Assembly: GCF_001422735.1 (NCBI RefSeq)
Contig: NZ_LMLZ01000012.1
Coordinates: forward strand, 280,920 to 344,919
Reading direction: 5' to 3'
From: Acidovorax sp. Leaf78
Lineage (GTDB): Bacteria; Pseudomonadota; Gammaproteobacteria; Burkholderiales; Burkholderiaceae_C
Length of the DNA: 64,000 nt
The position numbers and the translations under genes are program-made. The first letter of the stretch is position 1, and each line of letters opens with the position of its first letter. The notes under the pieces are model-generated. The model saw nothing but the letters and a program-made list of their open reading frames with translations. It made no database searches and was not told the DNA's origin. This document shows, in pieces, positions 5,451 to 32,955 of the stretch.

Positions 5451-5457
5451 GGTTTTG

Positions 5458-7732: not shown

Positions 7733-7804
7733 TCCGGCACCATGACCGCGGCGGAACCCCTCCCGGTGCCTGCCGAAGCCAACCGGGCAGACCAGGCATT
7801 GCCG

Positions 7805-12122: not shown

Positions 12123-13487
12123 TCACGGCGCCGCCATGCGCACCTGATTGCCGCCGTGCTTTTTGGACAAATACATGGCCTCGTCTGCGTGGGTCAACAG
12201 GTGGTGCGCGTCGGCTCCGTGCTCTGGGTAGACCGACACGCCGATGCTGGGCTGCACGGCCAGACGGTGCCCGCCCACCTCGAAGGCTTCGCTGAACGCA
12301 GCCAGAATCTTGCCTGCCACCGAGGCCGCGTGGTCGCGCACGTGGCCAGACTCCAGCAGCACCACGAATTCATCCCCGCCCAGCCGCGCCACCGTATCGG
12401 AGCTTCGCACGCAACTTTGCAGACGCTGCGCGACCTGCAGCAGCAGCAGGTCTCCCATCGCATGGCCCAGGGTGTCGTTCACGTCCTTGAACCGGTCCAG
12501 GTCGATGAACAGCAACGACAGCAGGCGCTCCTCCCGCCGCGCGCGGGCAAGCGCCGTGCTCAGGCGGTCCAGGAATAGCTGGCGGTTGGGCAACTGCGTG
12601 AGCTGGTCGTACTGGGCCATGCGCTCCAGCCGCTCGTGCAACTGCTTGCGCTCGATGGCGGCCGCCACCTGGGTGGAGACGAACTGCAGCAGTTCTTTGT
12701 CCTTGTCGGTGTACCGCCCTTGCTCCGTGTAGCTCTGCAGCACCAGGGCGCCCAGCACCCCGTTCTGGGTGGACAGCGGCACGGCCAGCCAATACAGCGG
12801 GGCGCCAGGGGCGGGTGCGGCCTGCGGTAGCGGCAGCACGCGGTGCATCGTCTCGGGCGTGATGAGCAGTGTGGTGCCGTTGTGGATGACTTCGCGGCAC
12901 AGCCGGATCTGCTCGTCCGACACGGGCGCCGGAGCGCCCGGCAAAGACCCGTCGCCGGGGCGCGCGTGGTACGGAAAGCTCAGCGTGCCGCTACCCGCGT
13001 CGTGCAAGGCCACCGAAAAGTGGGCTGCGTGCAGCAGCACGCCCACGATCTCGTGAATGCGCTGGAACAGCGACTCCAGCGTGCGCGCGGCATGCGCTGC
13101 CTCGGAGATTTCGTAGATGGCCGACTGCATGGATTCGGTGAACTTGCGCTCGGTGATGTCGTGCGCCACAGCCAGACGGACCTTGCGGTCGGGCAGCCAG
13201 CGCGCGGTCCAGCGGATGTGGGCCACCGTGCCGTCCTTGCGCAGGTAGCGGTTTTCGAACTGCAGCTGCAACTGGCCCTCCATCACCCGCTGCGCTTGTT
13301 GCTGTGTGCCGGGCAGGTCGTCCGGGTGTACCAGGTCCAGCATGCGCAGTCCTACGGCTTCATCGGGCGTGTAGCCAAAGATGCGTTCGAACGCCGGGCT
13401 TACGAAAACAATGGTGCTGTCCGGCTGCACGACGCAGACAGCGTCCAGCAACAGGTCGACGATGTTCGCGGAGGAAATTCTTTGCAT
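12123..13487 (-). CDS. PAS-GAF-GGDEF diguanylate cyclase
   Basis: From the ATG at 13487 the protein is 454 residues. A PAS domain (about 5-125) contains PDSTIVFVSPAFERIFGYTP, followed by a PAC-like segment ending DITERKF. A GAF domain (about 140-285) follows, ending ELLQFVSTQVAAAIERKQ. The C-terminal GGDEF domain (about 295-454) has the metal-binding Asp in FIDLDRFKDVND, the intact RLGGDEFVVL signature and an RSSD inhibitory I-site five residues before it. It should therefore make cyclic-di-GMP and be product-inhibited. No membrane segment is seen, so it is cytosolic. The frame extends upstream, but the extra sequence is not domain-like. It is transcribed away from the giant adhesin gene, with 1.17 kb between them, which makes local control of adhesion by its product an attractive inference. 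Confidence 0.88.
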   Translation of the reverse strand: MQRISSANIVDLLLDAVCVVQPDSTIVFVSPAFERIFGYTPDEAVGLRMLDLVHPDDLPGTQQQAQRVMEGQLQLQFENRYLRKDGTVAHIRWTARWLPDRKVRLAVAHDITERKFTESMQSAIYEISEAAHAARTLESLFQRIHEIVGVLLHAAHFSVALHDAGSGTLSFPYHARPGDGSLPGAPAPVSDEQIRLCREVIHNGTTLLITPETMHRVLPLPQAAPAPGAPLYWLAVPLSTQNGVLGALVLQSYTEQGRYTDKDKELLQFVSTQVAAAIERKQLHERLERMAQYDQLTQLPNRQLFLDRLSTALARARREERLLSLLFIDLDRFKDVNDTLGHAMGDLLLLQVAQRLQSCVRSSDTVARLGGDEFVVLLESGHVRDHAASVAGKILAAFSEAFEVGGHRLAVQPSIGVSVYPEHGADAHHLLTHADEAMYLSKKHGGNQVRMAAP

Positions 13488-14660
13488 GGACTGTGCGTAT
13501 CCGCGGGCGTAAGCAGAAAGCCCATTGTGCAGTGCCGTGCATCGGGTTGCCGCCCGCTGTGTGCAAACGCCACGCTGACGCGCGTTGGCTTGACGGCTTC
13601 CATGGCGGGCCGCTTGGTGCCGGGCTGCATGGGGTGGGCGGCGTGACGCATCCCTATGTGTTGAGAGTTGCGCCCTGAGAGCAGGCCTGCGCTTATGCGG
13701 GACTGTCCGCGGAAGGAACATTGCGCAGCACTCTTTCTGGCGTTCGTTTTTTGCAGCAAGACCAGCCTGCAATTCAGTGGAAACGGCCGCGGCGCCCGGT
13801 CACACAGATGCGAAATTCTGACTTGCACAAGTCAGAATAATATGTTGTGAGCACTGCAGATTTCGGTGGAATATGTCTTGTTGAAAAAAATGCCTGTTGC
13901 CATCGCTCCAATCGGCAGATTGTTGTGTGGGAAGAATTTTTTTGAAATTTTACGATTTCATCAACAAAGATAATTCACCTTCTTGTTGAATCGTCCCAGC
14001 CGGTTCAGTCACTTTTTGGTAACTCGCTTGCGCAACCGTAAGCATTCTGAGTTGACTTTGCCATCTGGAATGTGCCCACCTCGCACAACAGCCTTGCATT
14101 GGGCAAATAGAAAAGAGGACTTGGCGGGTTCAGTGCCCGTGCTCGGGAACAGATCCCAAGTGTGATGTAGATAGGCCCCCCTTGCCGGGCAGGCCTACTA
14201 ACAACTGCAGTGCAAAGCCGCGAAGGCTAATGCATCGTGAAATCAGCGTTTATGCAGTGTGTGTTCAATACTGAACTTTGATCAGGCGGATTTGGCCGCA
14301 GGTTAAGTCGTGGCATCAGCCAGTGGTCGTGTGAATCTCACCACGGCGGCGGTATTGAATCGATCAAATTATTTGCAGATTCATTGATCTTCACCTCCAA
14401 GGTGGCAATTGGCAATAGTTCGGCCCCATGGCGAAATTTTCGTCTCACGCGCCAAAGTTTTTGTTGTTTCGATGATGTCTGCTCTCGCGGCGATGTTCAA
14501 AATCTGAATGAAGTCATTCCGGCCACCTTGATTGGACTGTTGGGTTTTGTTTTGTTGTCTACATGTTGAATGCTATTTGCAGTATTGATTTATTTTCCTG
14601 CCACTTAGTGCGTGGTCTGGTAAATATTTTTACTCATAATTATTAATTGATTGAAATAAA
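13488..14660. other. 1.17-kb AT-rich non-coding region before the adhesin
   Basis: No supported gene lies here; the few open frames are short and lack ribosome sites. Base composition drops sharply: the 60 bases from 13921 are about 28 percent GC and those from 14581 about 32 percent, while flanking genes are much richer. It holds a 24-bp palindrome (13815-13838), three TTGTTGA/TCAACAA boxes (13878, 13962, 13983), and a strong hairpin with TAGGCC/GGCCTA arms at about 14172-14199. The region probably carries the adhesin promoter, a long leader and sites for several regulators. AT-rich promoters of this kind are typical targets of H-NS-like silencers. Confidence 0.6.
13815..13838. promoter_or_regulatory. 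perfect 11-bp-arm palindrome, operator candidate
   Basis: ATTCTGACTTG and its exact complement CAAGTCAGAAT are separated by two bases. The arms have full dyad symmetry and short spacing, as expected for a dimeric transcription factor site rather than a terminator. It is 327 bp from the diguanylate cyclase start and 822 bp from the adhesin start, so it could act on either. I do not recognise the motif. Confidence 0.55.
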
Positions 14661-17600
14661 ATGACCGCTGAAGTCTACGCATCCGTTGTGAAGATTGATA
14701 AATCCGCAATTTCAGGCGCGGTAAATATTGACAGGCCGATGGCGCCCAAAACAGTGGCGACTCCCGGTCAGGGTGTGGCAAGAATCAGCGCCAGAGGGGG
14801 TGTTTCCATCGAATTGACGCAGGCCAACACCCAAAAGGCTCCCGAAGTAGTCAAGGTGCGCCGTGTTGGTGCTGATCTGCAGGTTGATTTTCTGGAAGAC
14901 GGCACGGGCAGCTCTGACCTGATCATCGAAGATTTTTACGACCAGGATGGTTCCAGATTGGTGGGCTACGGAAGTGACGGGGCCGTCCACGACTACATCC
15001 CCCAGGCAGGCGGTTCCGATCAAGGGCTGGCCGGATTAGTCGACGGCGGCGAGGGGGCCATGCAGGTGCTGGGCGACTCAGCCGTGGGTGGCGGTGTGGG
15101 CGAGGGATTCGGGGCCATGCCCATGCTGCTGTTGGGCGGTGCTGCACTTTCGACGGTGGCCATTGCCACTTATGGGTCAAACCCGCCTGTCGCTGCGGCA
15201 CCTTCCAAGCCTAGCGCGCCGACCAGTTACAACGACAACTCTGCACCGGTCACCAGTGCCCGCAGCACTGCGGCTGCCACCAACGACACCACACCGGGCT
15301 TGAACATCGGCACTGGCCTCGTCAATCCAAAGTTGTACGTCAATGGCAAAGAAGTCGCCGCGACTTACGACGCGACCACCGGCACACTCACACCCAATGC
15401 GCCGCTGCCCGAAGGGTCTTACAAGCTGACCTACTCATACGCCAACAGCGATGGCGTCTACAGTGAGCAAAGCGATCCTATGGTGTTGGTGGTGGACACC
15501 ACCGCACCGGCCAAACCGGCCAGCGCCGCGGGGTACAACGACAACGTGGGCGCAGTGCAAAACGCCAACAGCACTGCCGCCACCACTGACGACAGCACTC
15601 CCGGGCTGAACGTCGGCAAGGGTCAAACCGGTGCAAAACTGTACGTGGATGGCGTACAAGTGCCTGCCACTTACGATGCCGAAACAGGGACCCTCACGCC
15701 CAGCAAGCCGCTGGCAGACGGCCCCCACAAAATCACCTACACCGTCAGCGACGAGGCCGGTAACGAAAGCCTCCAGAGCGACCCTATTTCGGTCGCAGTG
15801 AACACCGCCAACTTGGTCAAACCGCCTGCGCCCACCGTTTACGACGATAACTCCGCCCCCATCGTCAATGCCCAAAGCACGGCATCGACCACCAATGACA
15901 CCACGCCCGGGCTGAAGGTTGGTACCGGGCTGAGCAACCCCAAGCTGTACGTGGACGGCACCGAGGTGCCTGCCACGTACGACGCCACGACTGGCACCCT
16001 CACGCCAAATGTGCCATTGTCCGAAGGCAAACACAGCCTCACCTACGCCAACACCAGCGCGTCAGGCACGCTGAGCGAGCAGAGCGACGCCCTGGTCGTG
16101 ACGGTGGACACGACGCCACCGGCCACGCCCACCACGGCGCCTGTGGGCTACAAGGATGACGTGGGATCGGTGCAAAACTCCAGCAGCACGGCGGCAGCAA
16201 CCGATGACACCAAGCCTGGCATCCTGGTGGGCCAGAACCTCACGGACACGCCGAAGCTGTACGTGGACGGCGTGCAGGTGCCTGCGGTCTACGACGCGGC
16301 CACCGGCACGCTCACACCCAGCAGCGCATTGACGGAAGGCGCGCACACCGTCAGCTACACGCTGACCGACGCAGCCGGCAACGAAAGCGGCAAGAGCCCA
16401 GCGCTGAGCCTGACGGTGGACACCACCGCGCCAAAAGCCGGCAGCGAAGGCGCTTTGACGCTGACGGACGACGTGGGTGCGGTCAGGGGCGAGGTGGCCC
16501 TCGGCGGCGTGACCGACGACGCAAGGCCCACGTTCAAAGGCACCGGTGCTGGTGCCGACGTGGCCAAGGTCAATGTGTATGACGGCAACACCCTGGTGGG
16601 CACCGCCACGGGCAACAGCAACGGCAACTGGAGCTTCGAGCCCACGACGCCAATGAGCCCTGGCGACCACAACCTGACGGCGCGCCCCGTGGATGCGGCG
16701 GGCAATGAGGGGCCAGCCAGCAGCGGGTGGAATTTCAAGGTGCAGGGCGACACGCCCGCCGCTCCCGCGATCACGGGCGTGACTGACAACGCCGGTGGCG
16801 TGACGGGCAGCATTGGCAAGAACGGCACGACCGACGACACCACGCCTACAGTCAGCGGGACTGGCACGGCGGGCACCACCGTCAAGCTGTACGCCAACGG
16901 CCAGGAGGTAGGCTCGACCACGGTGGCCGCAGATGGCACCTGGACGGCAACCAGCAGCGCTCTTGCGGGCGATGGCACCAAGCTGCTGACGGCCAAGACG
17001 ATCGATAGCGCAGGCCAGTCCAGCGCGGAAACGGTGGCCTACACGATTGTGCTGGACACCACAGCGCCCACCAAGCCGGGAGTGGCAACAGCCACGGACG
17101 ACCAGGGCGCCGTCACAGGCCCCATCGCCAACGGCGGTGCGACCGATGACACCACACCCACGCTGAGCGGCTCCGGTACGCCAGGCGACACCATCAAGGT
17201 GTACGACAACGGCACCTTGCTGGGCAGCGCACCGGTGCAGCCCAACGGCAGCTGGAGCTTTACACCCGCCACGCCGCTGGGCAGCGGCGCGCACACCATC
17301 ACCACCACCGCGACCGATGCGGCAGGCAACATCAGTGCGGCGAGCGACCCACTGAACATCTCGGTGGACACCAGCGGACCAGCGACAGGCAGCGAAGGCA
17401 CGCTGACACTGCTGGATGACGTGGGGTCGGTCAAGGGCGAGATCACGCGCGGCAGCATGACGGACGACGCGCGGCCCACCTTCAAGGGCATGGGCGCCGG
17501 CGCCGACGTGGCCAAGGTCAACGTGTACGACGGCGCTACGCTGCTGGGCAGCGCCGTGGTGACCAACGGCAGCTGGATCTTCGAGCCCGCCACGCCATTG

Positions 17601-20600
17601 GCCAGCGGCGACCACAACCTGACCGCGCGCCCGGTGGACGCGGCCGGCAATGAAGGCCCTGCCAGCACCGGATGGAACTTCAAGCTCCTGGGGGATGCGC
17701 CTGCGCAGCCGGCGATTACCGGCGTGAATGACAACGCTGGCAGCGTGACCGGCAACATTGCCAAAGGCGCGACCACGGACGACACCACCCCCACGGTCAG
17801 CGGCACGGGCACGGCGGGCACCACCGTCAAGCTGTATGCCGATGGTGTGGAAGTTGGCTCAGCCACCGTGGCACAAGACGGCACCTGGCGGATCGCCAGC
17901 AGCACCCTCACCGGCGACGGCACCAAATTGCTCACCGCCAAGGCCTTCGACGGCGCGGGCCAGTCCAGCAACGAAACCGGCGCGTACGCGATCGTGCTGG
18001 ACACCACGGCCCCGGCCAAGCCCGGCGTGGCCACGGCCAATGACGACCAGGGCGCCGTCCAGGGGCCGGTGGCCAGCGGCGGTACCATCGACGACGCCAC
18101 CCCCACGCTCAGCGGCGCGGGCACGCCCGGCGACACCATCAAGGTCTACGACAACGGCACGCTGCTGGGCAGCGCTGCGGTGCAGGGCAATGGCAGCTGG
18201 AGCTTCACCCCCACGACGCCGCTGGGCAGCGGTGCGCACGCCATCACCACCACGGCGACCGATGCGGCGGGCAACACCCGTACGGCCAGCGACCCGCTGA
18301 ACTTCACGGTGGACACCAGCAACGTCACTGTGTCGGTGGGCAAGGCAGTGGACGATGCCGGCAGCAAGAAGGGCGACCTGGCCAACGGTGCGAGCACCGA
18401 TGACACCACGCCCACGTTGGTGGGCACGGCGGCGGCCGGCGCCACCGTCACCGTCAAGGAAGGCGGGGCCACGCTGGGCACTGCCACGGCAGACGCCAGC
18501 GGCGCCTGGAGCTTCATCCTGCCTTTGCAGACACAGGGACAGCACAACTACACCGTCGAGGCCCGCAATGCGGCCGGCACCACCGGCAGCACCAGCTTCG
18601 CGCTCATCGTCGACACCACGCCCCCGGCAGTACCGTCCATCGGCGGCGCCACGGACGACGTCGGCACCGTGCAGGGGCCCGTCGCCAACGGCGCGAGCAC
18701 CGACGACACCACACCTACGCTGTCGGGCACGGGCGCCACAGCCGGCGACACCATCAAGGTCTATGACAACGGCGCGCTGCTGGGCAGCACCACCGTGCAG
18801 GCCAACGGCAGCTGGAGCTTCACGCCCCTCACGCCGCTGACCGACGGCAGCCACCCGCTGACGGCGACCGCCACCGACTCGCAGGGCAACGAAAGCACGC
18901 CGAGCGTGGCCTACACCCTCAAGGTCGACACCACGGCCCCGGCCACGCCGACGGCCGCACCTGCGGGCTACAAAGACGACATGGGCGCGGTGCAGAGCGC
19001 CAGCAGCACGGCGCAAAGCACCGACGACACGCGCCCCGGCATCCTGGTAGGGCAAAACCTGACGGACACACCCAAGCTGTACGTGGACGGTGTGGCGGTA
19101 GCTGCCGCGTACGACCCGGCCACCGGCACGCTGACCCCGGTGGCGGGCCTCGCCGACGGCGCCCACACCTTCAGCTACACGCTGACCGACGCGGCGGGCA
19201 ACGAGAGCGGCAAGAGCCCGGCGCTCGCCATCACCGTGGACACCGGCGCGCCTGCCACCGGCAGCGAAGGAACCCTTACGCTGCTGGACGACGTGGGCAC
19301 CGTCAAGGGCGAAATCGCCCGCGGCAGTGTGACCGATGACGCACGGCCCACCTTCAAGGGCACCGCCGCCGGTGCCGACGTGGCCAAGGTCAACGTGTAC
19401 GACGGCGCGACGCTGCTGGGCAGCGCCGTGGTGACCAACGGCAGCTGGATCTTCGAGCCCGCCACGCCACTGGCCAGCGGCGACCACAACCTGACGGCGC
19501 GCCCGGTGGACGCAGCCGGCAATGAAGGCCCCGCCAGCGCTGCCTGGACTTTCAAGCTGCTGGGCGACGCACCCGCGGCGCCCGCCATCACCGGCGTCAG
19601 CGACGACGCAGGCAGCGTGACCGGCTCCATCGCCAAAGGCGCCACGACCGACGACACCACGCCCACCGTCAGTGGCACCGGCACGGCCGGCACTACCGTC
19701 AAGCTGTATGCCGACGGCGTGGAGGTCGGCTCCACCACCGTCGCGCAGGACGGCACCTGGCGGGTGACGAGCAGCGCGCTCGTGGGCGACGGCACCAAGC
19801 AACTTACCGCCAAAGCCATCGACGGCGCAGGCCAGGCCAGTCCCGAGACGGGGGCCTATGCGGTCGTTCTGGACACCACGGCACCCGCCAAGCCGGCTAC
19901 GGCTACGGCCAGCGACGACCAGGGCTCAGTGCAGGGCCCGGTGCCCAACGGCGGTACCACCGACGACGCTTACCCGACGCTGAGCGGATCCGGCACGCCG
20001 GGCGACACGGTCAAGGTCTACGACAACAACGGCAACGGCGCCACCTTGCTGGGCACAGCGCTGGTGCAAGGCAACGGCAGCTGGAGCTTCACCCCCACGA
20101 CGCCGCTGGGCAGCGGTGCGCACGTCATCACCACCACGGCGACCGACACGGCGGGCAACACCAGTGCGGCCAGCGACCCGCTCAACATCACGGTGGACAC
20201 CAGCAACGTCAGCGTGTCGGTCGGCAAGGCCACCGACAACGCCGGCAGCAAGCAGGGCGATCTGGCCAACGGTGCGAGCACTGACGACACCACACCGACT
20301 CTGGTGGGGACGGCGGCCGCCAACGCGACGATCACCGTCAAGGAAGGCGCCACCACCGTGGGCACGGCCACGGCCGACGCCAGCGGTGCCTGGAGCTTCA
20401 CGCTGCCTGCGCAGACACAAGGCCTGCACAACTACACCGTCGAGGCGCGCAATGCGGCGGGCACCACCGGCAGCACCAGCTTCGCCCTGACCATCGACAC
20501 CGCCGCTCCGGCCGTGCCGGCCATCGGCGATATCACTGACGACGTCGGCACGGTGCAAGGCCCGGTCGCCAACGGCGCCAGCACCGACGACACCACACCC

Positions 20601-23600
20601 ACGCTGTCGGGCACCGGTGCCACGGCGGGCGACACCATCAAGGTCTTTGACAATGGCGTGCTGCTGGGCAGCACGCAGGTCAGGCCGGGCGGCAGCTGGA
20701 GCTTCACCCCGCAGACACCGCTGACCGACGGCAGCCACCCGCTGACGGTGACCGCCACCGATCCGCAGGGCAACGAAAGCACGCAGAGCGCGGCCTACAC
20801 GGTCCGGGTGGACACGGCGGCTCCGACAACCCCCACGGCAGCACCCGCAGGCTACAAGGACGACGTGGGCGCGGTGCAAAGCGCCAACAGCACGGCTCCC
20901 GCCACCGACGACACCCGCCCGGGCATCCTGGTGGGCCAGAACCTCACCGACACGCCCAAGCTGTACGTGGACGGCGTGCAGGTGGCTGCGGCCTACGACC
21001 CCGTCACGGGCACACTCACCCCCAGCACTGCGCTGGCCGATGGCGCGCACAACATCAGCTACACGCTCACCGACGCAGCCGGCAACGAAAGCGGCAAGAG
21101 CCCGGCGCTGAGCCTGACGGTGGATACCAGTGCACCGACCTCCGGCAGCGAAGGCACATTGACCCTGCTGGACGACGTGGGCGCCGTCAAGGGCGAGATC
21201 ACCCCGGGCAGCATGACCGACGACGCTAAGCCCACCTTCAAGGGCATGAACGCTGGGCCCGACGTGGCCAAGGTCAATATCTACGACGGCGCCACACTGC
21301 TGGGCAGCGCCGTGGTGACCAACCGCAGCTGGAGCTTCGAGCCCGCCACACCGCTGGCCAGCGGAGACCACAACTTCACGGCGCGCCCTGTGGACGCTGC
21401 AGGCAACGAAGGCCCCGCCAGTACCGCGTGGAACTTCAAGCTGCTGGGCGACGCCCCGCGGGAGCCCGCCATCACCGGCGTGAGCGACAACGCTGGCGGT
21501 GTGCAAGGCAATATCGCAAAGGGCGCGGCCACCGACGACACGACGCCCACCGTCAGCGGAACGGGCGCCGCTGGCACCACCGTCAGGCTCTACGCCGACG
21601 GCGTGCAGGTGGGTTCGACCACCGTGGCGCAGGACGGCACCTGGCAGGTGACGAGCAGCGCGTTGACAGGCGACGGCACCAAGCTGCTGACGGCCAAGGC
21701 CTTCGACGGCGCAGGCCAGTCGAGCACCGAAACCGGTGCCTATGCGATCGTGCTGGACACCACCGCACCGGCCAAGCCAGGCGTGGCCACGGCCAATGAC
21801 GACCAGGGCGCGGTCCAGGGCCCGGTGTCCAACGGCGGCACGACCGACGACTCCACACCCACCCTGAGCGGCTCCGGCACGCCGGGCGACACGGTCAAGG
21901 TCTTTGACAACGGCGTCCTGCTGGGCAGTGCATCGGTGCAGGCCAACGGCAGCTGGAGTTTCACGCCCACCGCGCAGCTGGCCAGCGGCGCGCACGCCAT
22001 CACCACCAACACCACCGATGCGGCCGGCAACACCAGTGCAACCAGCGATCCGCTGAACTTCACGGTGGACACGAGCAATGTGAACGTCTCCGTCGGCAAA
22101 GCGATGGACAACGCTGGCCCCAAGCAGGGCGACCTGGCCAACGGCGCCAGTACCGACGACACCACGCCCACACTGGTCGGCACGGCAGCGGCCGGCGCCA
22201 CCATCACCGTCAAGGAAGGAGCCACCACGCTGGGCACGGCCACAGCCGACGCCAGCGGTGCCTGGAGCTTCCTGCTGCCGACGCAGGTGCAAGGCCTGCA
22301 CAACTACACGGTGGAGGCCCGCAACGCCGCGGGCACCACGGGCAGTACCAGCTTCGCCCTGACCATCGACACGACGCCTCCCGCAGTGCCGACCATCGGC
22401 GGCGTGTCTGACGACGTGGGCACCGTGCAGGGCCCGGTGGCCAGCGGCGCGGCCACGGACGACACGACGCCCACGCTCACCGGCTCAGGCGCCACCGCGG
22501 GCGACACCATCAAGGTCTACGACAACGGCGCGCTGCTGGGCAGCACGACGGTGCAGTCCAACGGCAGCTGGAGCTTCACGCCCACGGCACCCCTCACGGA
22601 AGGCAGTCACCCGCTGACAGTGACCGCCAGCGATCCGCAGGGCAACGAAAGCACGCCGAGCGCGGCCTACACGGTCAGGGTCGACACCACGGCCCCGTCC
22701 GCACCGGTCGCACCTGCGGCCTACAAGGACGACGTGGGCGCGCTGCAGAGCGCGAACAGCACTGCGCCGACCACCGACGACTCCCGCCCGGGCATCCTGG
22801 TGGGGCAGAACCTCACCGACACGCCCAAGCTGTATGTCGATGGCGTGGCGGTGGCGGCGGCTTACGACCCGGCGACCGGTACCCTCACACCCGCCACTGC
22901 GCTCGCCGAAGGCCCGCACAGCATCAGCTACACGCTGACCGACGCGGCCGGCAATGAAAGCAGCAAGAGCCCGGCGTTCAGCCTTACCGTGGACACGAGC
23001 GGCCCGGCGGCCGGCGGCGAAGGCACGCTGACCCTGCTGGATGACGTAGGCTCGGTCAAGGGCGAGATCGCCCGTGGCGGCATGACCGACGACGCACGCC
23101 CCACGTTCAAGGGGACCGGCGTAGGCGCCGACGTAGCCAAGGTCAACGTCTACGATGGCTCCACGCTGCTGGGCAGCGCCGTCGTGACGAACGGCGCCTG
23201 GAGCTTCGAGCCTGCCACCCCGCTGGCCAGCGGTGACCACAACCTCACCGCGCGTCCGGTGGACGCCGCGGGCAACGAAGGACCCTCCAGCGCTGGCTGG
23301 AACTTCAAGCTGCTGGGCGATGCCCCCGCACAGCCGGCCATTACCGGCGTGAGCGACAACGCAGGCAGCGTGACGGGGACCATCGCCAAGGGCGATACAA
23401 CGGACGACACCACACCCACCGTCAGCGGCACCGGCACGGCAGGCACCACCATCAAGCTCTACGCCGACGGTGTGGAAGTCGGCTCCACTACCGTGGCCCC
23501 GAACGGCACCTGGAGCGTGACGAGCAATGCCCTGACTGGCGACGGCACCAAGCTGCTGACGGCCAAGGCCATCGACGGCGCGGGCCAGTCCAGTGCCGAG

Positions 23601-26600
23601 ACGGGTGCCTATGCCATCGTGCTGGACACCACTGGTCCGGCCAAGCCGAGCGCGCCCACGGCCACGGACGACCAGGGCGCCGTGCAAGGCACCGTGGCCA
23701 ACGGCAGCACGACCGACGACGCCACCCCGACCTTCAGCGGCTCGGGCACGCCGGGAGATACCGTCAAGGTCTACAACAATGGCACACTGCTGGGCAGCGC
23801 AGTCGTACAAACCAATGGCAGCTGGAGTTTCACGCCCACGGCGCAACTGGCCAGCGGTGCGCACGCCATCACCACAACGGCCACGGACGCGGCCGGCAAC
23901 ACCAGCGTCACAAGCGACCCGCTGAATTTCACGGTGGATACGAGCAACGTGACCGTCTCGGTGGCCAAGGCCACCGACAACGCGGGCAGCAAGCAGGGCG
24001 ACCTGGCCAACGGCGCAAGCACCGACGACACCACGCCCACGCTGGTCGGTACGGCAGCGGCCAACGCGACGATCACCGTCAAGGAAGGCGCCACCACGGT
24101 GGGCACGGCCACGGCCGACGCCAGCGGTGCGTGGAGCTTCATCCTGCCGGCGCAGGCGCAAGGCCAGCACAACTACACCGTGGAGGCCCGCAACGCGGCG
24201 GGCACCACGGGCAGCACCACCTTCAGCCTGACGATCGACACCACGGCACCTGCGGTACCGTCCATCGCCAATGTCACGGACGACGTGGGCACGGTACAGG
24301 GCCCGGTGGCCAACGGCGCGAGCACCGACGACACCACGCCCACGCTGTCGGGCACGGGCGGGACGGCCGGCGACACCATCAAGGTCTACGACAACGGCGC
24401 TCTGCTGGGCGCCACCACCGTGCAGGCCAACGGCAGCTGGAGCTTCACGCCCACCGCGCCTCTGACCGAAGGCAGCCATCCGCTGACCGTGACGGCCACC
24501 GACCCTCAGGGCAACGAGAGCACGCCGAGCGCGGCCTACACCGTCAAGGTCGACACGACGGCACCGAGCACCCCGGCGGCACCACCCGCAGGCTACAAGG
24601 ATGATGTGGGTGCGGTGCAGGGCGCCAACAGCACGGCACCGACTACGGACGACACCCGCCCGGGCATCCTGGTGGGGCAGAACCTCAGCGACACGCCCAA
24701 GCTGTACGTCGATGGCGTGGCGGTGGCCGCCGCCTACGACCCGGCCACCGGCACACTCACGCCCACGGCGGCACTGCCCGACGGCGCTCACACGTTCAGC
24801 TACACGCTGACCGATGCGGCAGGCAACGAAAGCAGCAAGAGCCCGGCATTGAACATCACCGTGGATACCGGTGCGCCTCCGGCTGGAGCAGCACCCACAA
24901 GCTACGACGACAATTCCGCGCCGGTCACCAATGCCAACAGCACGGCACCGGCCACCAACGACACCACGCCCGGCATCAATGTCGGCACAGGCCTGACCAA
25001 CCCCAAGCTGTATGTCAACGGCACGGCTGTGGCTGCGACCTACAACGCGGCGACGGGCACACTCACGCCGAACGTTCCGCTGGCTGACGGAACCTACAAC
25101 CTGACCTTTACGTCCGCCAACAGCGCGGGCACGGACAGTGCCCAGAGCGGCCCCTTGGTGCTCAAGGTGGACACCACGCCACCGGCGGCGCCCACGATTG
25201 CCTTGGACCAGGACACTGCAGGCACTCAGACGGGTTCGTCGAGCGACGCCTACACCAGGAACGGAAGCTACACAGCAGGCGGCGTGGAGCAAGGCGCGGT
25301 CGTCCAGTACAGCCAGGACGGTACCAACTGGAGCGCGAGCAAACCCACCGCGGTGGAGGGGGCCAACACGATCAGTGTTCGCCAGATCGATGCAGCGGGC
25401 AATGTGAGCGGCAGCAACTCCGTGTCCTTCACTCTGGACACGAGCACCGCTGCGCCCAGCCAGACAACGGCGCAGAACGTCTTCGTTGGTACCGCGCCGT
25501 CCTTTGTGCTGACTGGGCAGCAGGTCAACACCACCACGGCGGGCGATCAGTCCGGTCCTGTCACGGTGAAGACCAGCAACGGCGGCTATTTCACAGCCTG
25601 GTACGACAACGCACTGAACGACCCTGCAGGCGCGGTGCACGGGCAGTACTACACCGCCAATGGCATCAAGATCGGCAATGAGCTGACTTTTGGTGGCGGC
25701 AACTGGCAGGTCAACGGCAACGGCTATGCCAACATGCCGATGCTGAGCGCCGTGGCGCTGGACAATGGCAAGGTGGTGCTGTCATGGCAGACCGAGGACT
25801 CCAACGGCGGTGTGGGCGGAGGCGGCTCCAACGCCACCAGCGAAGTGGCCTATGCAACGGCCACCCTGACAGGCAGCACGGCTTCGGCAGGTGCGCCCAC
25901 GTTGGCGAACACGACACTGGCTGGAAACCAGTCCGGCCCGGCCATGGTGGCTACCAAGGATGGCGGATTCTTCATGGCCTGGTACAACGCGGACGACACG
26001 GACCCCCAAGGCGTGGTGCGCGGACAGTTCTTCGATGCCAATGGGAACAAGACCGGTGGGGAGCTCCAACTGGGTAGCTGGCAGGTCAATGGCGACTCCT
26101 GGGCTGTGGGTCAGCCACCGCTGAGCGCCGTGACACTCAGCAATGGCGGCATCGCAGTGGCATGGACGGCTGAAGGCGGCCCGGCAGGCCCCAACACGGC
26201 GTCTACCGAAGTAGCTCAGGTCGTGGTGTCCAGCACGGGCACGGTGGGCCCGCAATCCGTGGCCAACACCACGACGGCAGGCAACCAGGGCGCGCCGGTG
26301 ATGGTGGCGACCAGCGATGGCGGTTACTTCATCGCCTGGTTCAACGACGACAGCAGCGTCAAAGGCGGCCAAGGCCAGATCAGCGGCCAGTACTTCAATG
26401 CCAGCGGCAGCAAGGTCGGTGGTGAGGTGGCCCTGGGCACCTGGGTGGTCAATGAAAACACCCAGGTCGACATGCCTTTCCTGACGGCCACCGCGCTCCA
26501 GGGTGGCAAGGTCGCCGTGGGCTGGCAAACCGAAGACAGCACCAACAACACCGGCCCCACGGACACCAACGAGGCAGCGATGGTGGTGGTGAGCAACAAC

Positions 26601-27941
26601 GCTGGTGCAGTGACGGTCAGTGCCCAAACCATGGTCAATACGACTACGGCAGGGAACCAGTCCCCGCCGACCATGGTCGGATTGGACACCGGCGGATTCT
26701 TTGCTGCCTGGTATGACGATTCCTGGGCTGACCCGGGCAATTCCGTGATTCGCGGCCAGTACTTCAACGCTCAGGGCGCGAAGGTCGGCAGCGAAATTCT
26801 GGTGAGCAACTACCGGGCGGAACTCAGCGACGCGGGAGAGCAGCCACCGCTGCACGTCACCGCGTTGGTCGGTGGCAAGGTGGTGGTGTCCTGGAACACC
26901 GAGGCTGACGATGCCAGGGACGGCAGCGGTGCCGCTGTCTACCAGGCCGTCATCGACATGCCCGCCACGACAGTGGTCAATGGCACGGCGGAACTGAACA
27001 GCACGGTGACGCTGAAAGACGGTGCAGGCACCGTCCTCGGTACGACGGTGACGGATGCGCAGGGACAGTGGCAGATCACGACGAGCGAAGTGCAGGACAG
27101 CACCAGGCCCTTGTACGCGACCGTGGTCGACAAGGCCGGCAACAGCGTGACCAAGCCCATCAACTTCACGCCGCCGGTGGTGTTGGACCTGAACCACGAT
27201 GGCCACATCGAATACGGCCATGTCGTGATGGACGTGACCGGAGACGGCGTAGCGGAGCGCACCGCCTGGACAGGCGCCAACGATGGCGTGCTGGTGTGGG
27301 ACAAGCACGGCGATGGCGTGGTGCACGACAGCAGCCAGTACGCCTTTACCCAGTACGGCGGCAGCACCGACCTGCAAGGCCTGGCCGCACGCTTCGATAC
27401 CAACCATGATGGCGTGTTCGATGCGAACGACAAGGAGTTCTCGCAGTTCGCGGTGTGGCGCGATGCCAACCAGAACGGTTTGAGCGATGCGGGCGAGGTC
27501 CGGTCGCTGGCCGACTGGGGCATCACGTCCATCGGTTTGACCAGCGATGGACAGGTGCGGCACGGCGACGGCGTGATCGAGTTCGGGCGCACATCGGCCA
27601 CCATGGCTGACGGATCGTCGATGTTGGTGGCCGACGCCATGTTCGCCCACGATTCGCTGGACGCCCTGGTGCAAAACGCCACTGTCGCTCCGCACGGCAA
27701 CCCGGGCACGGACGACGCATCGCCTGTCACGGTGGATATGAAGCCGTTGGAGGTCCATGCCTTTGCCACCAAGCCGCTGTTGGTGACGGTCGACGGCAAC
27801 GATGCAGGGCGACTGGACGGTGCTGGCGCGAAGCACGCGGATGCGACGGCGTCCATCGACGACCACACACCCGACGTGTGGCACAGCGCGATGGCGAATC
27901 TGCTGGTCGACCAGCAAGCCGCGCTGCACCCGGTGCTCTGA
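14661..27941 (+). CDS. giant BapA-type adhesin, 4426 residues
   Basis: Residues 1-175 form a BapA-like prefix: an N-terminus without Sec signal, a segment with VRRVGADLQVDFLEDGTGSS and LIIEDFYDQDGSRLVGYGSD, then a hydrophobic stretch near 150-172 (MPMLLLGGAALSTVAIATYG). About 33 Ig-like modules of roughly 104 residues follow (about 185-3610), each with TDDTTPT-like starts, LYVDG or VYDNG centres and an LxVDTTAP linker. Next come four 119-127-residue units (about 3623-4105) with GGYFTAWYD and GKVVLSWQTED motifs, probably beta-propeller blades. The last region has EF-hand-like loops DLNHDGHIEYG, DTNHDGVFDAND and DANQNGLSDAGE. No RTX nonapeptides are seen. The following TolC-ABC-HlyD genes match the Salmonella bapABCD order, so export is by type I secretion to the surface. 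There is no clear Shine-Dalgarno. Confidence 0.92.
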   Translation: MTAEVYASVVKIDKSAISGAVNIDRPMAPKTVATPGQGVARISARGGVSIELTQANTQKAPEVVKVRRVGADLQVDFLEDGTGSSDLIIEDFYDQDGSRLVGYGSDGAVHDYIPQAGGSDQGLAGLVDGGEGAMQVLGDSAVGGGVGEGFGAMPMLLLGGAALSTVAIATYGSNPPVAAAPSKPSAPTSYNDNSAPVTSARSTAAATNDTTPGLNIGTGLVNPKLYVNGKEVAATYDATTGTLTPNAPLPEGSYKLTYSYANSDGVYSEQSDPMVLVVDTTAPAKPASAAGYNDNVGAVQNANSTAATTDDSTPGLNVGKGQTGAKLYVDGVQVPATYDAETGTLTPSKPLADGPHKITYTVSDEAGNESLQSDPISVAVNTANLVKPPAPTVYDDNSAPIVNAQSTASTTNDTTPGLKVGTGLSNPKLYVDGTEVPATYDATTGTLTPNVPLSEGKHSLTYANTSASGTLSEQSDALVVTVDTTPPATPTTAPVGYKDDVGSVQNSSSTAAATDDTKPGILVGQNLTDTPKLYVDGVQVPAVYDAATGTLTPSSALTEGAHTVSYTLTDAAGNESGKSPALSLTVDTTAPKAGSEGALTLTDDVGAVRGEVALGGVTDDARPTFKGTGAGADVAKVNVYDGNTLVGTATGNSNGNWSFEPTTPMSPGDHNLTARPVDAAGNEGPASSGWNFKVQGDTPAAPAITGVTDNAGGVTGSIGKNGTTDDTTPTVSGTGTAGTTVKLYANGQEVGSTTVAADGTWTATSSALAGDGTKLLTAKTIDSAGQSSAETVAYTIVLDTTAPTKPGVATATDDQGAVTGPIANGGATDDTTPTLSGSGTPGDTIKVYDNGTLLGSAPVQPNGSWSFTPATPLGSGAHTITTTATDAAGNISAASDPLNISVDTSGPATGSEGTLTLLDDVGSVKGEITRGSMTDDARPTFKGMGAGADVAKVNVYDGATLLGSAVVTNGSWIFEPATPLASGDHNLTARPVDAAGNEGPASTGWNFKLLGDAPAQPAITGVNDNAGSVTGNIAKGATTDDTTPTVSGTGTAGTTVKLYADGVEVGSATVAQDGTWRIASSTLTGDGTKLLTAKAFDGAGQSSNETGAYAIVLDTTAPAKPGVATANDDQGAVQGPVASGGTIDDATPTLSGAGTPGDTIKVYDNGTLLGSAAVQGNGSWSFTPTTPLGSGAHAITTTATDAAGNTRTASDPLNFTVDTSNVTVSVGKAVDDAGSKKGDLANGASTDDTTPTLVGTAAAGATVTVKEGGATLGTATADASGAWSFILPLQTQGQHNYTVEARNAAGTTGSTSFALIVDTTPPAVPSIGGATDDVGTVQGPVANGASTDDTTPTLSGTGATAGDTIKVYDNGALLGSTTVQANGSWSFTPLTPLTDGSHPLTATATDSQGNESTPSVAYTLKVDTTAPATPTAAPAGYKDDMGAVQSASSTAQSTDDTRPGILVGQNLTDTPKLYVDGVAVAAAYDPATGTLTPVAGLADGAHTFSYTLTDAAGNESGKSPALAITVDTGAPATGSEGTLTLLDDVGTVKGEIARGSVTDDARPTFKGTAAGADVAKVNVYDGATLLGSAVVTNGSWIFEPATPLASGDHNLTARPVDAAGNEGPASAAWTFKLLGDAPAAPAITGVSDDAGSVTGSIAKGATTDDTTPTVSGTGTAGTTVKLYADGVEVGSTTVAQDGTWRVTSSALVGDGTKQLTAKAIDGAGQASPETGAYAVVLDTTAPAKPATATASDDQGSVQGPVPNGGTTDDAYPTLSGSGTPGDTVKVYDNNGNGATLLGTALVQGNGSWSFTPTTPLGSGAHVITTTATDTAGNTSAASDPLNITVDTSNVSVSVGKATDNAGSKQGDLANGASTDDTTPTLVGTAAANATITVKEGATTVGTATADASGAWSFTLPAQTQGLHNYTVEARNAAGTTGSTSFALTIDTAAPAVPAIGDITDDVGTVQGPVANGASTDDTTPTLSGTGATAGDTIKVFDNGVLLGSTQVRPGGSWSFTPQTPLTDGSHPLTVTATDPQGNESTQSAAYTVRVDTAAPTTPTAAPAGYKDDVGAVQSANSTAPATDDTRPGILVGQNLTDTPKLYVDGVQVAAAYDPVTGTLTPSTALADGAHNISYTLTDAAGNESGKSPALSLTVDTSAPTSGSEGTLTLLDDVGAVKGEITPGSMTDDAKPTFKGMNAGPDVAKVNIYDGATLLGSAVVTNRSWSFEPATPLASGDHNFTARPVDAAGNEGPASTAWNFKLLGDAPREPAITGVSDNAGGVQGNIAKGAATDDTTPTVSGTGAAGTTVRLYADGVQVGSTTVAQDGTWQVTSSALTGDGTKLLTAKAFDGAGQSSTETGAYAIVLDTTAPAKPGVATANDDQGAVQGPVSNGGTTDDSTPTLSGSGTPGDTVKVFDNGVLLGSASVQANGSWSFTPTAQLASGAHAITTNTTDAAGNTSATSDPLNFTVDTSNVNVSVGKAMDNAGPKQGDLANGASTDDTTPTLVGTAAAGATITVKEGATTLGTATADASGAWSFLLPTQVQGLHNYTVEARNAAGTTGSTSFALTIDTTPPAVPTIGGVSDDVGTVQGPVASGAATDDTTPTLTGSGATAGDTIKVYDNGALLGSTTVQSNGSWSFTPTAPLTEGSHPLTVTASDPQGNESTPSAAYTVRVDTTAPSAPVAPAAYKDDVGALQSANSTAPTTDDSRPGILVGQNLTDTPKLYVDGVAVAAAYDPATGTLTPATALAEGPHSISYTLTDAAGNESSKSPAFSLTVDTSGPAAGGEGTLTLLDDVGSVKGEIARGGMTDDARPTFKGTGVGADVAKVNVYDGSTLLGSAVVTNGAWSFEPATPLASGDHNLTARPVDAAGNEGPSSAGWNFKLLGDAPAQPAITGVSDNAGSVTGTIAKGDTTDDTTPTVSGTGTAGTTIKLYADGVEVGSTTVAPNGTWSVTSNALTGDGTKLLTAKAIDGAGQSSAETGAYAIVLDTTGPAKPSAPTATDDQGAVQGTVANGSTTDDATPTFSGSGTPGDTVKVYNNGTLLGSAVVQTNGSWSFTPTAQLASGAHAITTTATDAAGNTSVTSDPLNFTVDTSNVTVSVAKATDNAGSKQGDLANGASTDDTTPTLVGTAAANATITVKEGATTVGTATADASGAWSFILPAQAQGQHNYTVEARNAAGTTGSTTFSLTIDTTAPAVPSIANVTDDVGTVQGPVANGASTDDTTPTLSGTGGTAGDTIKVYDNGALLGATTVQANGSWSFTPTAPLTEGSHPLTVTATDPQGNESTPSAAYTVKVDTTAPSTPAAPPAGYKDDVGAVQGANSTAPTTDDTRPGILVGQNLSDTPKLYVDGVAVAAAYDPATGTLTPTAALPDGAHTFSYTLTDAAGNESSKSPALNITVDTGAPPAGAAPTSYDDNSAPVTNANSTAPATNDTTPGINVGTGLTNPKLYVNGTAVAATYNAATGTLTPNVPLADGTYNLTFTSANSAGTDSAQSGPLVLKVDTTPPAAPTIALDQDTAGTQTGSSSDAYTRNGSYTAGGVEQGAVVQYSQDGTNWSASKPTAVEGANTISVRQIDAAGNVSGSNSVSFTLDTSTAAPSQTTAQNVFVGTAPSFVLTGQQVNTTTAGDQSGPVTVKTSNGGYFTAWYDNALNDPAGAVHGQYYTANGIKIGNELTFGGGNWQVNGNGYANMPMLSAVALDNGKVVLSWQTEDSNGGVGGGGSNATSEVAYATATLTGSTASAGAPTLANTTLAGNQSGPAMVATKDGGFFMAWYNADDTDPQGVVRGQFFDANGNKTGGELQLGSWQVNGDSWAVGQPPLSAVTLSNGGIAVAWTAEGGPAGPNTASTEVAQVVVSSTGTVGPQSVANTTTAGNQGAPVMVATSDGGYFIAWFNDDSSVKGGQGQISGQYFNASGSKVGGEVALGTWVVNENTQVDMPFLTATALQGGKVAVGWQTEDSTNNTGPTDTNEAAMVVVSNNAGAVTVSAQTMVNTTTAGNQSPPTMVGLDTGGFFAAWYDDSWADPGNSVIRGQYFNAQGAKVGSEILVSNYRAELSDAGEQPPLHVTALVGGKVVVSWNTEADDARDGSGAAVYQAVIDMPATTVVNGTAELNSTVTLKDGAGTVLGTTVTDAQGQWQITTSEVQDSTRPLYATVVDKAGNSVTKPINFTPPVVLDLNHDGHIEYGHVVMDVTGDGVAERTAWTGANDGVLVWDKHGDGVVHDSSQYAFTQYGGSTDLQGLAARFDTNHDGVFDANDKEFSQFAVWRDANQNGLSDAGEVRSLADWGITSIGLTSDGQVRHGDGVIEFGRTSATMADGSSMLVADAMFAHDSLDALVQNATVAPHGNPGTDDASPVTVDMKPLEVHAFATKPLLVTVDGNDAGRLDGAGAKHADATASIDDHTPDVWHSAMANLLVDQQAALHPVL
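16149..24593 (+). repeat. nested repeats in the adhesin: six-module super-repeat of about 1.87 kb
   Basis: The module starting YKDD(V/M)G recurs at 16149, 18969, 20853, 22722 and 24594. Spacings are 2820, 1884, 1869 and 1872 bp. Each of the last three units holds six distinct Ig-like module types in fixed order. The first unit has nine modules because types 2-3-4 occur twice; the 936-948 bp excess fits three modules of about 312 bp. Copies of the same type are far more alike than neighbouring types, showing block duplication. Confidence 0.85.
25527..26975 (+). repeat. four-copy propeller-like repeat in the adhesin C-terminal part
   Basis: Units begin with an NTTxAG(D/N)Q motif at 25527, 25908, 26265 and 26637 (spacings 381, 357 and 372 bp). 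Each unit has two halves: one with GGYFxAWYDD, a GQYF motif and a KxGxE motif, the other with ALxxGKVxVxWQTED. This is reminiscent of the DGGFVVTW-type repeats of other large secreted proteins. Four units with two halves each could form eight propeller blades. Confidence 0.7.
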
Positions 27942-27957: not shown

Positions 27958-27993
27958 AGCCACGGGCCACCAGGTCCGTGGCTATTTCTTCTC
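27958..27993 (+). terminator. terminator/attenuator between adhesin and secretion genes
   Basis: AGCCACGG pairs with CCGTGGCT around a ten-base loop, followed by the T-rich tract ATTTCTTCTCT. It begins 17 bp after the adhesin stop and precedes the TolC gene. The T tract is interrupted, so partial read-through is likely. Hairpins in this position are known in haemolysin operons, where they give far more substrate than exporter. Confidence 0.65.
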
Positions 27994-28085
27994 TGTGCAT
28001 GGATTCCCTGGCGCCCCGTCCGGTGCGAATGGGCGCAAGCCAGCCCACAAGCAAATTGGCAGATCAACAAACAAGTGAGTGCGGA

Positions 28086-29381
28086 TTGAAAAAGAGTAGT
28101 GCCTTGGTGGCCGGAGCCGCACTGCGTGGGTGCAGGGGCGTGGGCCTGGCCCTGTGCCTTCACATGGGGGGAGTAGCGCTCGCGCAGCCCACCATGTCGC
28201 CGGTGTTGCTGAACCTGATCCGGCAGACAGTGGAACTGCATCCTTCGGTACGGATGGAGTCTGCCTTCGTGCGGGCGGCCAAGGAGGATGTGTCTGCCGC
28301 GGATTGGCAGCGTTACCCCACGTTGGCTGCCCAGACCTCGTCCAACACCCCACGCCTGTCCACACAGCTCAGCCTGGAGCAGCCGCTCTGGACGGGCGGG
28401 CGCCTGGATGCGCAGCGGGATATGGCCCGGGCGCAGGAGGCGCTGCAGGTGGCCCAGAAGAAAGAGGTCCAGTACCAGCTGGCGACCAAGGTGGTGGACT
28501 CGTGGGTGGCGATGGTGCAGGCCGACGAGCGCATCAAAGAGACGGGCCGGACCATCGACCAGCTCGAGCGCTACAAGGCAATGATGCGCCGGCGTGTCGA
28601 CGCACAGGTGTCGCCCCAGATCGAATTCACGTTGCTGGAATGGCGGACGTTTCAGGCACGGGTCGATCTGCAGCAGACGCGCACGGCGCGCACGCTGTCC
28701 CGCAACCGCCTGCGCCAGCTGGTCGGGCACGAGCCCGAAAGCGATGCCGCATGGGACGCAGAGCAACCCCTGGCGGCGCTGGCGACGACCGCATCGGAAA
28801 CCCGGCATGCGCTGGGCCGGCAGATCGACGATGCCATCGACGTGCACCCCTCGGTGCGCAAAGCGCGGGAGCGGGCACGGGTGGTGCAGTACCAGGCCGA
28901 CGTGCAGCGGGCCGGGCTCGGGCCCGAGGTGTATTTGAGGGCGCAATACAGGGCCGGTGGTGCGGCGGTGCCGGGTGAGCGCAGCGTCTTCGTCGGTGTG
29001 CGATACCAGCCCGGCGCGGGCTTGTCCTCGCTGGCCACCAGTCGGGCTGCGTCTGAGCGGGCGCAGGGGCAATTGTTTGCGGCGGAGACCGCGCAGCGCG
29101 AGCTCAACGAACAGATGCGCACCGATCTGGAGAACATGGCCAGTGCGCAGATGCGCGCCGATGCCTTGGCGACCGCCGTCGGGTCCTCCACGGACGTGCT
29201 GGTGTCGAACGAAAGGCTGTTCATCGCGGGCAAGCGCAGTTGGCAGGAAGTTCTCAACACCGTGCGCGAGGGGGGCGACAACCGCCTGGCGCTGGTGGAC
29301 GCGCGCGCGGCCTTGCTGGCAGCCTACTACCGCCTGCAGGTGGTGCGTGGCGATCTGGATTGGCAGCAGAGTGCGCCGTGA
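28086..29381 (+). CDS. TolC-family outer membrane channel of the adhesin secretion system
   Basis: With the TTG start at 28086 the protein has 432 residues and begins LKKSSALVAGAALRGCRGVG, a normal Sec signal ending GVALAQ. An in-frame ATG at 27978 lies inside the terminator hairpin and would bury the signal, so it is rejected. The mature protein has the duplicated TolC pattern: LIRQTVELHPSVRMESAFVR with coiled-coil helices (AAKEDVSAADWQRYPTLAAQ), LSLEQPLWTGGRLDAQRDMA, and in the second half DDAIDVHPSVRKARERARVV and NERLFIAGKRSWQEVLNTVR. Such trimeric channels span the outer membrane and dock to the HlyD adaptor. It is the second gene of the adhesin-TolC-ABC-HlyD order and resembles LapE and BapB by context. 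Confidence 0.87.
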   Translation: MKKSSALVAGAALRGCRGVGLALCLHMGGVALAQPTMSPVLLNLIRQTVELHPSVRMESAFVRAAKEDVSAADWQRYPTLAAQTSSNTPRLSTQLSLEQPLWTGGRLDAQRDMARAQEALQVAQKKEVQYQLATKVVDSWVAMVQADERIKETGRTIDQLERYKAMMRRRVDAQVSPQIEFTLLEWRTFQARVDLQQTRTARTLSRNRLRQLVGHEPESDAAWDAEQPLAALATTASETRHALGRQIDDAIDVHPSVRKARERARVVQYQADVQRAGLGPEVYLRAQYRAGGAAVPGERSVFVGVRYQPGAGLSSLATSRAASERAQGQLFAAETAQRELNEQMRTDLENMASAQMRADALATAVGSSTDVLVSNERLFIAGKRSWQEVLNTVREGGDNRLALVDARAALLAAYYRLQVVRGDLDWQQSAP

Positions 29382-29508
29382 TCGTGCGGTCTGTCCTGCA
29401 GATTCGGCGGCACTGCGCGCGTTGGTCATTCTTTTCCTTTTTCAACCTGTCTGCCACATGGCCCACGAGTTCCGTGTGTGCGCGACAGGCTCGTTTTTTT
29501 TGGTTCCC

Positions 29509-29535: not shown

Positions 29536-29563
29536 TGTGCGGCAAGGTCCAAGTGCGTTTTCC

Positions 29564-31693: not shown

Positions 31694-32955
31694 AGATCGA
31701 ACCCATGATGGACGCCCAGGCACCCGCCCGTGGCATGGCGGTGTCACAACCTCAACCACAACGACAGCGTGCCGCTGACGCACACGCCCATGCTCACGCA
31801 GATATCGCAGACCTGCTGGCACCGCAGCGCCGGTCCCGCTGGACGCTGCGCGTCGCGATGGTCGGCATCGTGGCTCTGGTGACCTGGGCCGCAGTTTCCA
31901 AGATCGACCAGGTGACGCGCGCACAGGCCCAGGTGATCGCCAGCGCCCGCACGCAGGTCATCCAGGCGGTAGACCCGGGCGTGGTAACCCGCCTACACGT
32001 GCGCGAGGGCGACGATGTGAAAGCGGGGCAACTGCTGGTGACCCTGGAAAAGGCCCGGGCGGAAGCCGCGGTGGACGACGCGCAGTCCAAGGTGGCAGCC
32101 CTTCGCTCAGCTTTGGTGCGCCTGCGCGCCGAGGTCTATGGGGAACCCTTGAAGTTCGATGCAGAGCTGCTGGCATACCCCGAATTCGTGCGCAACCAGC
32201 GTGCGCTGTACGAGCGGCGCAAGCAGGCGATCGACGAGGATGTGGCCTCGCTGCGCGGCGCGATGGACTTGGCCAAACAGGAACTGGACATGAACCAGAA
32301 ACTGGTGGCCACCGGCGACGTGAGCCTGGCCGACGTGCTGCGGCTCAAGCGCATGGTCGCCGAGATCCAGGCGCAGATCGCCAACAAGCGGAACAAGTAC
32401 TTCCAGGACTCGCAGGCGGAGATGACCAAGGCCCAGGAGGAACTGAACACACAGGTCGAGCAGGTGCGCGACCGCAAGCAGGTGATGGAGCACACCGAAC
32501 TGTTCGCTCCGCTGGGCGGCCAGGTCAAGAGCATCCAGTTGACGACCGCAGGTGCCGTGGTCAAGCCCGGCGACGTCATCATGGAAATCGTGCCCACCGG
32601 CGGGGATTTGATCCTGGAGGCCAAGATCAACACCGCCGACATCGCCTTCGTGGAAATAGGGCAGGTCGCGAGCGTCAAGCTCGATGCGTACGACTACTCG
32701 ATCTTCGGCACCATGAAGGGCGAAGTCTTCTACGTGAGCCCCGACACGCTGGAGGAAAACCGCCAGGGCAAGATGGAGCCCTACTACCGGGTGCAGATCC
32801 GCATCCGGGGCAAGGAGTTCACCAAGGGCAGCGACGTCAAGATCAGGCCGGGCATGACGGCCTCCGTCGACATCAAGGCGATGGAGCGGACGGTGTTGAG
32901 CTACCTGACCAAGCCCCTGACCAAGACGTTGTCGCAATCGATGGGTGAGCGGTGA
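31690..32955 (+). CDS. HlyD-family membrane fusion protein (LapC/BapD-like)
   Basis: The 421-residue protein overlaps the ABC gene by ATGA, implying translational coupling. A His/Ala-rich cytoplasmic N-terminus (about 1-55) precedes one membrane helix (WTLRVAMVGIVALVTWAAVS). Periplasmic lipoyl/beta-barrel motifs follow: VIQAVDPGVVTRLHVREGDD with VKAGQLLVTLE, two long coiled-coil helices (about 115-255; LRGAMDLAKQELDMNQKLVA and MTKAQEELNTQVEQVRDRKQ), then LFAPLGGQVKSIQLTTAGAV and GDVIMEIVP. The C-terminus has KIRPGMTASVDIK, the usual HlyD ending. It bridges the ABC pump and the outer membrane channel. It is the last gene of the set: neither a LapD-like receptor nor a LapG-like protease gene follows. 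Confidence 0.93.
   Translation: MKIEPMMDAQAPARGMAVSQPQPQRQRAADAHAHAHADIADLLAPQRRSRWTLRVAMVGIVALVTWAAVSKIDQVTRAQAQVIASARTQVIQAVDPGVVTRLHVREGDDVKAGQLLVTLEKARAEAAVDDAQSKVAALRSALVRLRAEVYGEPLKFDAELLAYPEFVRNQRALYERRKQAIDEDVASLRGAMDLAKQELDMNQKLVATGDVSLADVLRLKRMVAEIQAQIANKRNKYFQDSQAEMTKAQEELNTQVEQVRDRKQVMEHTELFAPLGGQVKSIQLTTAGAVVKPGDVIMEIVPTGGDLILEAKINTADIAFVEIGQVASVKLDAYDYSIFGTMKGEVFYVSPDTLEENRQGKMEPYYRVQIRIRGKEFTKGSDVKIRPGMTASVDIKAMERTVLSYLTKPLTKTLSQSMGER

Follow-up and report, generated by a model that had tools for sequence, protein, structure and literature searches.

An old six-module super-repeat, stable in the few alleles compared, in a putative giant adhesin gene of Acidovorax

The stretch of DNA analysed here (the window; 64,000 nucleotides from Acidovorax sp. 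Leaf78) carries a gene for a putative giant adhesin that heads a type I secretion (T1SS) operon, with outer membrane efflux, ABC and HlyD genes adjoining it at 27978-32955. Translation of the 4426-aa reading frame gave 0 internal stops across 14661-27941, and Pfam Big_13 matches in 32 stretches of the protein mark a long array of Ig-like domains. Splitting at the linker motif yielded 33 Ig-like modules, one at aa ~186-277 and then 32 more. Family and operon thus both favour the original prediction of a giant adhesin with Ig-like modules, and the predicted number of about 33 agrees with the count. The features of the locus are as follows.

12123..13772, - strand: PAS-GAF-GGDEF protein, likely a diguanylate cyclase, divergently oriented neighbour (PF00990; start uncertain)
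14661..27941, + strand: putative giant adhesin gene, single open frame
14661..15188, + strand: N-terminal domain (aa 1-176), without Pfam match, the part most divergent from Acidovorax sp. Leaf191
15216..16103, + strand: head Ig modules 0-2 (F'-F-F'), from linker splitting; start of module 0 approximate
16104..16415, + strand: module 3, first type-6 copy, from linker splitting
16416..17363, + strand: extra three-module set 1-2-3 (modules 4-6), present too in Leaf191 and Acidovorax sp. sic0104
17364..19235, + strand: super-repeat unit 1 (types 1-6, modules 7-12), from linker splitting and DNA self-comparison
19236..21119, + strand: super-repeat unit 2 (modules 13-18; module 15 with a 4-aa insertion)
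21120..22988, + strand: super-repeat unit 3 (modules 19-24; type 6 shorter by one residue)
22989..24860, + strand: super-repeat unit 4 (modules 25-30)
24861..25433, + strand: tail Ig modules 31 (F') and 32, from linker splitting
25434..26940, + strand: predicted beta-propeller, candidate adhesive head, with four ~122-aa repeats at 25523-26904
26964..27152, + strand: single Ig domain (Big_6; Pfam)
27171..27662, + strand: domain like the FrpC self-processing module (SPM) (PDB 6sjw, E 2.3e-16; match itself 27213-27662)
27783..27938, + strand: last 52 residues, candidate secretion signal
27978..29381, + strand: outer membrane efflux protein, TolC-like, T1SS (PF02321; TIGR01844 at 72.7 bits, below cut-off)
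29537..31693, + strand: T1SS permease/ATPase, LssB-like (PF00664, PF00005; TIGR03375 at 660.8 bits against a cut-off of 693.1)
31690..32955, + strand: HlyD-family T1SS adaptor (PF13437; TIGR01843 above cut-off)

The modules follow the order F'-F-F'-6-[1-2-3]-[1-2-3-4-5-6]x4-F'-x. Modules of type 6 begin at 16104, 18924, 20808, 22680 and 24549, and their spacings of 2820, 1884, 1872 and 1869 bp reproduce to the base the predicted period of 1869-1884 bp in three consecutive units; the 2820 bp predicted for an enlarged first unit reflect one additional three-module set, modules 4-6. Self-comparison of the DNA, proposed beforehand as a check, gave the expected diagonals of about 1.87 kb (1872, 1869 and 1884 bp) together with others at 2820, 3741-3756 and 5625 bp, and the best 240-bp window at the 1872-bp shift reached 92.1% identity. 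These diagonals were absent from codon-shuffled controls (n=20), in which the top window, whatever the shift, was 47-50% identical and no shift exceeded 75%. Mean DNA identity between modules, likewise proposed as a check, was 79-85% for the same type and 46-67% for different types. The nesting of the super-repeats, and duplication of whole sets as blocks at some time, are therefore retained from the original prediction. Tandem Repeats Finder, for which the longest period given was 500, did not report the array. A search of the source genome with unit 2 returned nine matches among the best 40 of 398 candidates scored, all within the adhesin gene. Against solved structures the same unit matched one sequence, 2yn3/2yn5, titled 'putative inner membrane protein', which we take to be SiiE.

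Residues resembling calcium sites were counted by motif in the 32 modules other than module 0. A linker D was present in 31/32 modules and a mid motif in 30/32, and a D before AGN/AGQ/QGN was found in 26/32, being missing from four type-4 and two F' modules. The NCBIfam model Ca_tandemer scored 674 bits on the adhesin.

Beyond the array, the predicted beta-propeller is an unannotated four-fold repeat with kin in large surface proteins, many of them alphaproteobacterial by name. At the start of the SPM-like domain Thr/Pro stands in place of the scissile Asp-Pro in the window, in the partial protein P0018 and in Leaf191, and since no Asp precedes the Pro, Asp-Pro cleavage is not expected; the SPM-like domains of P0021, P0038, P0039 and P0041 are also without the Asp. 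No RTX family match was found in the C-terminal part.

Within the window gene the super-repeat units are 83-84% identical to one another in DNA, with dS between these paralogues of 0.54-0.62. Exact repeats reach 60 bp at most, and the best identity between units over 500 aa is 86%. Values of dN well below dS indicate purifying selection on the adhesin protein. At this identity, and with exact runs so short, the copies should recombine poorly; in synthesised adhesin repeats, according to the available text of PMC7493085, DNA identity was lowered to <75% to curb recombination.

The same array was found in Acidovorax sp. Leaf191, where module order is identical position by position; module 15 again carries the 4-aa insertion, module 24 is again short by one residue, and the signature residues of unit 3 recur. 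In the Leaf191 draft the frame is broken twice, once in module 11 and once in module 29, around a 98-bp exact repeat common to the two; these breaks may be either artefact or mutation, and both modules were excluded from counts. Among modules of types 1-6, 52 have a counterpart. For 35 of these, the nearest module was that at the same position in the other genome; the other 17 had their nearest module in their own genome (10) or at another position of the other genome (7). In a DNA tree of joined units (Leaf191 units 1 and 4 taken without type 5), units 2, 3 and 4 paired by position with 100% support each, unit 1 was not paired by position (41% support), and a tree grouping units by genome was rejected (AU p 8.6e-8). 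The lowest dN of each unit was to the same-position unit in 4/4 cases (0.034-0.060 versus 0.075-0.102 for all other pairs). Same-position dS between window and Leaf191 was 0.40-0.68, the unit 1 pair (W1-L1, 0.683) lying at the paralogue level. The 3428-aa partial protein P0018 covers the stretch between the end of module 7 and the C-terminus, and there is identical to the window protein at 3398/3428 residues (99.1%) with 0 indels.

In Acidovorax sp. sic0104 the orthologue is an in-frame gene of 1099 aa (L033:982-4278) that comprises the N-terminus, head modules, types 6, 1, 2, 3, 1 and part of 2, and the last ~50 residues. When the sic0104 genome was searched for the missing C-terminal region, the sole match was to the last 52 residues, the same part that is present in the short gene, which makes collapse by assembly less likely. 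In the type trees, sic0104 modules 3-6 joined the same-position modules of window and Leaf191 (support 0.22, 0.84, 0.93 and 0.98), so that the order of the head, including the extra set, probably predates the three-way split. The short gene shows that length can change, yet gain or loss of whole units was seen nowhere in this small sample. With one genome per species in the genome sets, strain variation was judged on P0018 together with two sister species; by these sequences, module number and order appear stable in the few alleles compared (one sister genome, one partial allele and one short form).

The N-terminal 276 aa of the adhesin matched 7 of 47 genus genomes at E 1e-3; three of these are orthologues by score (the source genome, G023 and G015) and four were weak (E 1.7e-4 to 4.1e-4). 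Among 24 genomes of other families in the order, G042 alone matched, weakly (36% identity, E 4.9e-10). Close matches to the HlyD gene came from the same three genomes (86-100% identity; next 39%), and an HlyD match of any kind was present in 46/47 genus genomes. With orthologues of the N-terminal region and close HlyD matches confined to three genomes, the adhesin gene and its operon are present in few of the species in this set. Related loci were located in Leaf191, sic0104 and a Hydrogenophaga MAG. The protein searches covered lengths of 2434-7745 aa (for P0001) and 604-1923 aa (for sic0104) and scored the candidates sharing most words with the query; among those scored for the N-terminal query, a full-length orthologue was not found.

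Divergence from Leaf191 is uneven along the window. Identity per kilobase of DNA is 95-99% over 33-42 kb and 97% over 53.5-57.5 kb, and falls to 78-96% over 9-33 kb, the region of deepest divergence, with its minimum at the adhesin N-terminus; smaller drops lie at 1-2 kb (86%) and 42-46 kb (88-93%). The dS values are 0.37 for the upstream ABC gene, 0.54 for the GGDEF gene, 1.21 for the adhesin N-terminal domain (third positions 52% identical), 0.24 for the adhesin C-terminal part, 0.43 and 0.44 for the T1SS ABC and HlyD genes, and 0.02-0.05 for the three genes immediately downstream. Positions 5428-9013 of the window had no match reported in the Leaf191 region compared. On these comparisons, the simplest reading is that the adhesin locus was replaced in one lineage by an old divergent allele, with the array kept in both.

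Taken together, the locus probably encodes a giant adhesin of the BapA/SiiE-like kind, secreted by a type I system and stiffened by calcium, with a six-module super-repeat that is old and has since been stable. The stalk of 33 Ig-like modules would hold a distal C-terminal head, made up of the predicted propeller, the Ig domain and the SPM-like calcium domain, off the cell. Tandem duplication of a six-module block may have lengthened this stalk long ago, from its anatomy most likely through unequal recombination of one copy with another, and a further three-module duplication would have been added at the stalk head. The copies would since have diverged, and with adjacent modules dissimilar, recombination between them is presumably rare. 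Module number and order would then have been kept, probably by selection acting on how far the stalk reaches or on how its modules fit together.

The original prediction instead derived the super-repeats from recent, repeated recombination and considered unit number likely to differ between strains, an account we regard as improbable. It can draw on the clear DNA period, with windows up to 92%, on conversion tracts of marginal significance within the gene, and on its seeming occurrence in a distant relative. Bap-like proteins of Enterobacter hormaechei measure 4361 aa (P0011), 4882 aa (P0006/P0010) and 5403 aa (P0007), in steps of exactly 521 aa, and unit copies in P0006, P0007, P0010 and the unnamed protein P0009 are 97-99% identical over 500 aa; P0008 (4568 aa) is off the step. 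Steps and near-identical copies of this sort have the look of recent unit duplication, and in the Enterobacter relative entire units seem to be gained and lost. The window gene does not have that look: unit dS, the 60-bp limit on exact repeats and the best 500-aa identity of 86% all speak against recency, and recent amplification was rejected on dS, exact-repeat length and positional pairing between genomes. Nor was the expected strain length variation found, Leaf191 and partial P0018 (from the end of module 7) having the same module number and order where comparable, and the AU test points the same way. That the array is an artefact of assembly is less probable still. Assemblies often misstate how many repeats a giant adhesin has (available part of PMC7493085), and the Leaf191 draft is broken twice at its 98-bp exact repeat, but exact repeats in the window gene are no longer than 60 bp and the same order recurs in the separate records of Leaf191 and P0018, which makes an artefact unlikely.

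A slower process, in which unit number is fixed while short tracts move by low-rate, ongoing gene conversion and so bring same-position divergence near the paralogue level, is possible but doubtful. In its favour, same-position dS between window and Leaf191 is near or at paralogue dS, unit 1 is unpaired, 17/52 modules are nearest to something other than their positional counterpart, and candidate tracts reached p values near 0.03. In the run-length permutation test, the window gene gave one tract (W1/W4, global p 0.028), the joint window and Leaf191 set gave a W1/W2 tract (p 0.03, 300 shuffles), and Leaf191 alone gave no tract (lowest p 0.51), all uncorrected for the three sets tested. Against it, the unique N-terminal region, which has no internal donor, is more divergent still, so that divergent alleles alone can explain the same-position dS. 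Mean identities within a genome and between genomes at different positions also agree within ~0.01 for all six types (the Leaf191 type-5 within-genome mean being a single pair), and within-genome homogenisation was rejected on this agreement.

Under the preferred reading of an old, stable super-repeat, we suggest tentatively that adhesin-T1SS alleles (dS 0.2-1.2) circulate between lineages, that divergence of the units blocks unequal recombination, and that selection fixes the length and register of the stalk. If true, such a locked super-repeat would act as a ruler and not as a contingency locus. A multi-module super-repeat unchanged between two deeply diverged alleles contrasts with repetitive adhesins, which are often variable in length; RtxA has 5-40 repeats by strain (PMC7493085, in the text available). 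Set beside the Enterobacter proteins, the window gene poses the question of whether unit identity or selection on reach sets stalk length. In a self-shift survey of 78 proteins, multi-module periods led in others too, e.g., P0019 (523/1046 aa). Expansion by multi-domain blocks has long been known, nebulin growing by blocks of 7 domains according to the excerpt available of PMC1553488; it shares this mode of growth with the window adhesin, which differs in being a bacterial Ig-like stalk.

Among characterised systems, SiiE of Salmonella enterica resembles the window adhesin in its Ig-like stalk, in T1SS export as predicted here, and in aspartates that may be calcium sites in the window protein; it has 53 BIg domains, and its type I Ca2+ sites resemble the window motifs by our own matching from sequence to the available text of PMC5466336. 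The predicted beta-propeller and the SPM-like end would set the window adhesin apart from SiiE, and the latter domain, for all its match to the FrpC module, is without that module's Asp before Pro. The large adhesins BapA, Bap and LapF share Big_13/Big_6 modules with it, and several protein matches are so named. The BapA prefix PF22783, which several BapA-like matches carry, gave no match at E 10 in window aa 1-180 or the sic0104 N-terminus, a search in which HMMER filters can drop weak matches. Adhesins controlled by LapG, such as LapA, are similar in pairing a large T1SS adhesin with a neighbouring GGDEF gene; LapG control was rejected, the protease (PF06035) not being found in the source genome (0/1, three candidates scored; 1/14 control genomes positive). 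The NCBIfam model NF040520 (BLP2 of A. baumannii) scored 1524 bits, its cut-off being 750. BLP2 likewise has Ig-like repeats, but with 728 aa and four of them (PMC4647330, available text) it was rejected as an identity for a protein of 4426 aa and 33 modules; the high score is probably that of repeats summed, and this equivalog model may mislabel such long-array proteins. DDxP proteins, which occur in Variovorax also, are modular and T1SS-linked as well, but have repeats of 136-304 aa ending in DDxP (available part of PMC7730722), whereas the window modules measure ~104 aa and carry a DDxxP internally, and that family was rejected on module length and motif place. In literature searches, this protein was absent among the matches listed for super-repeats, higher-order repeats and repeat-number variation in bacterial adhesins, as was the word Acidovorax among those listed for Acidovorax adhesins. 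The reading that fits best is of a higher-order repeat in a BapA/SiiE-like stalk that is ordinary in kind and, on the few alleles compared, notable for its stability.
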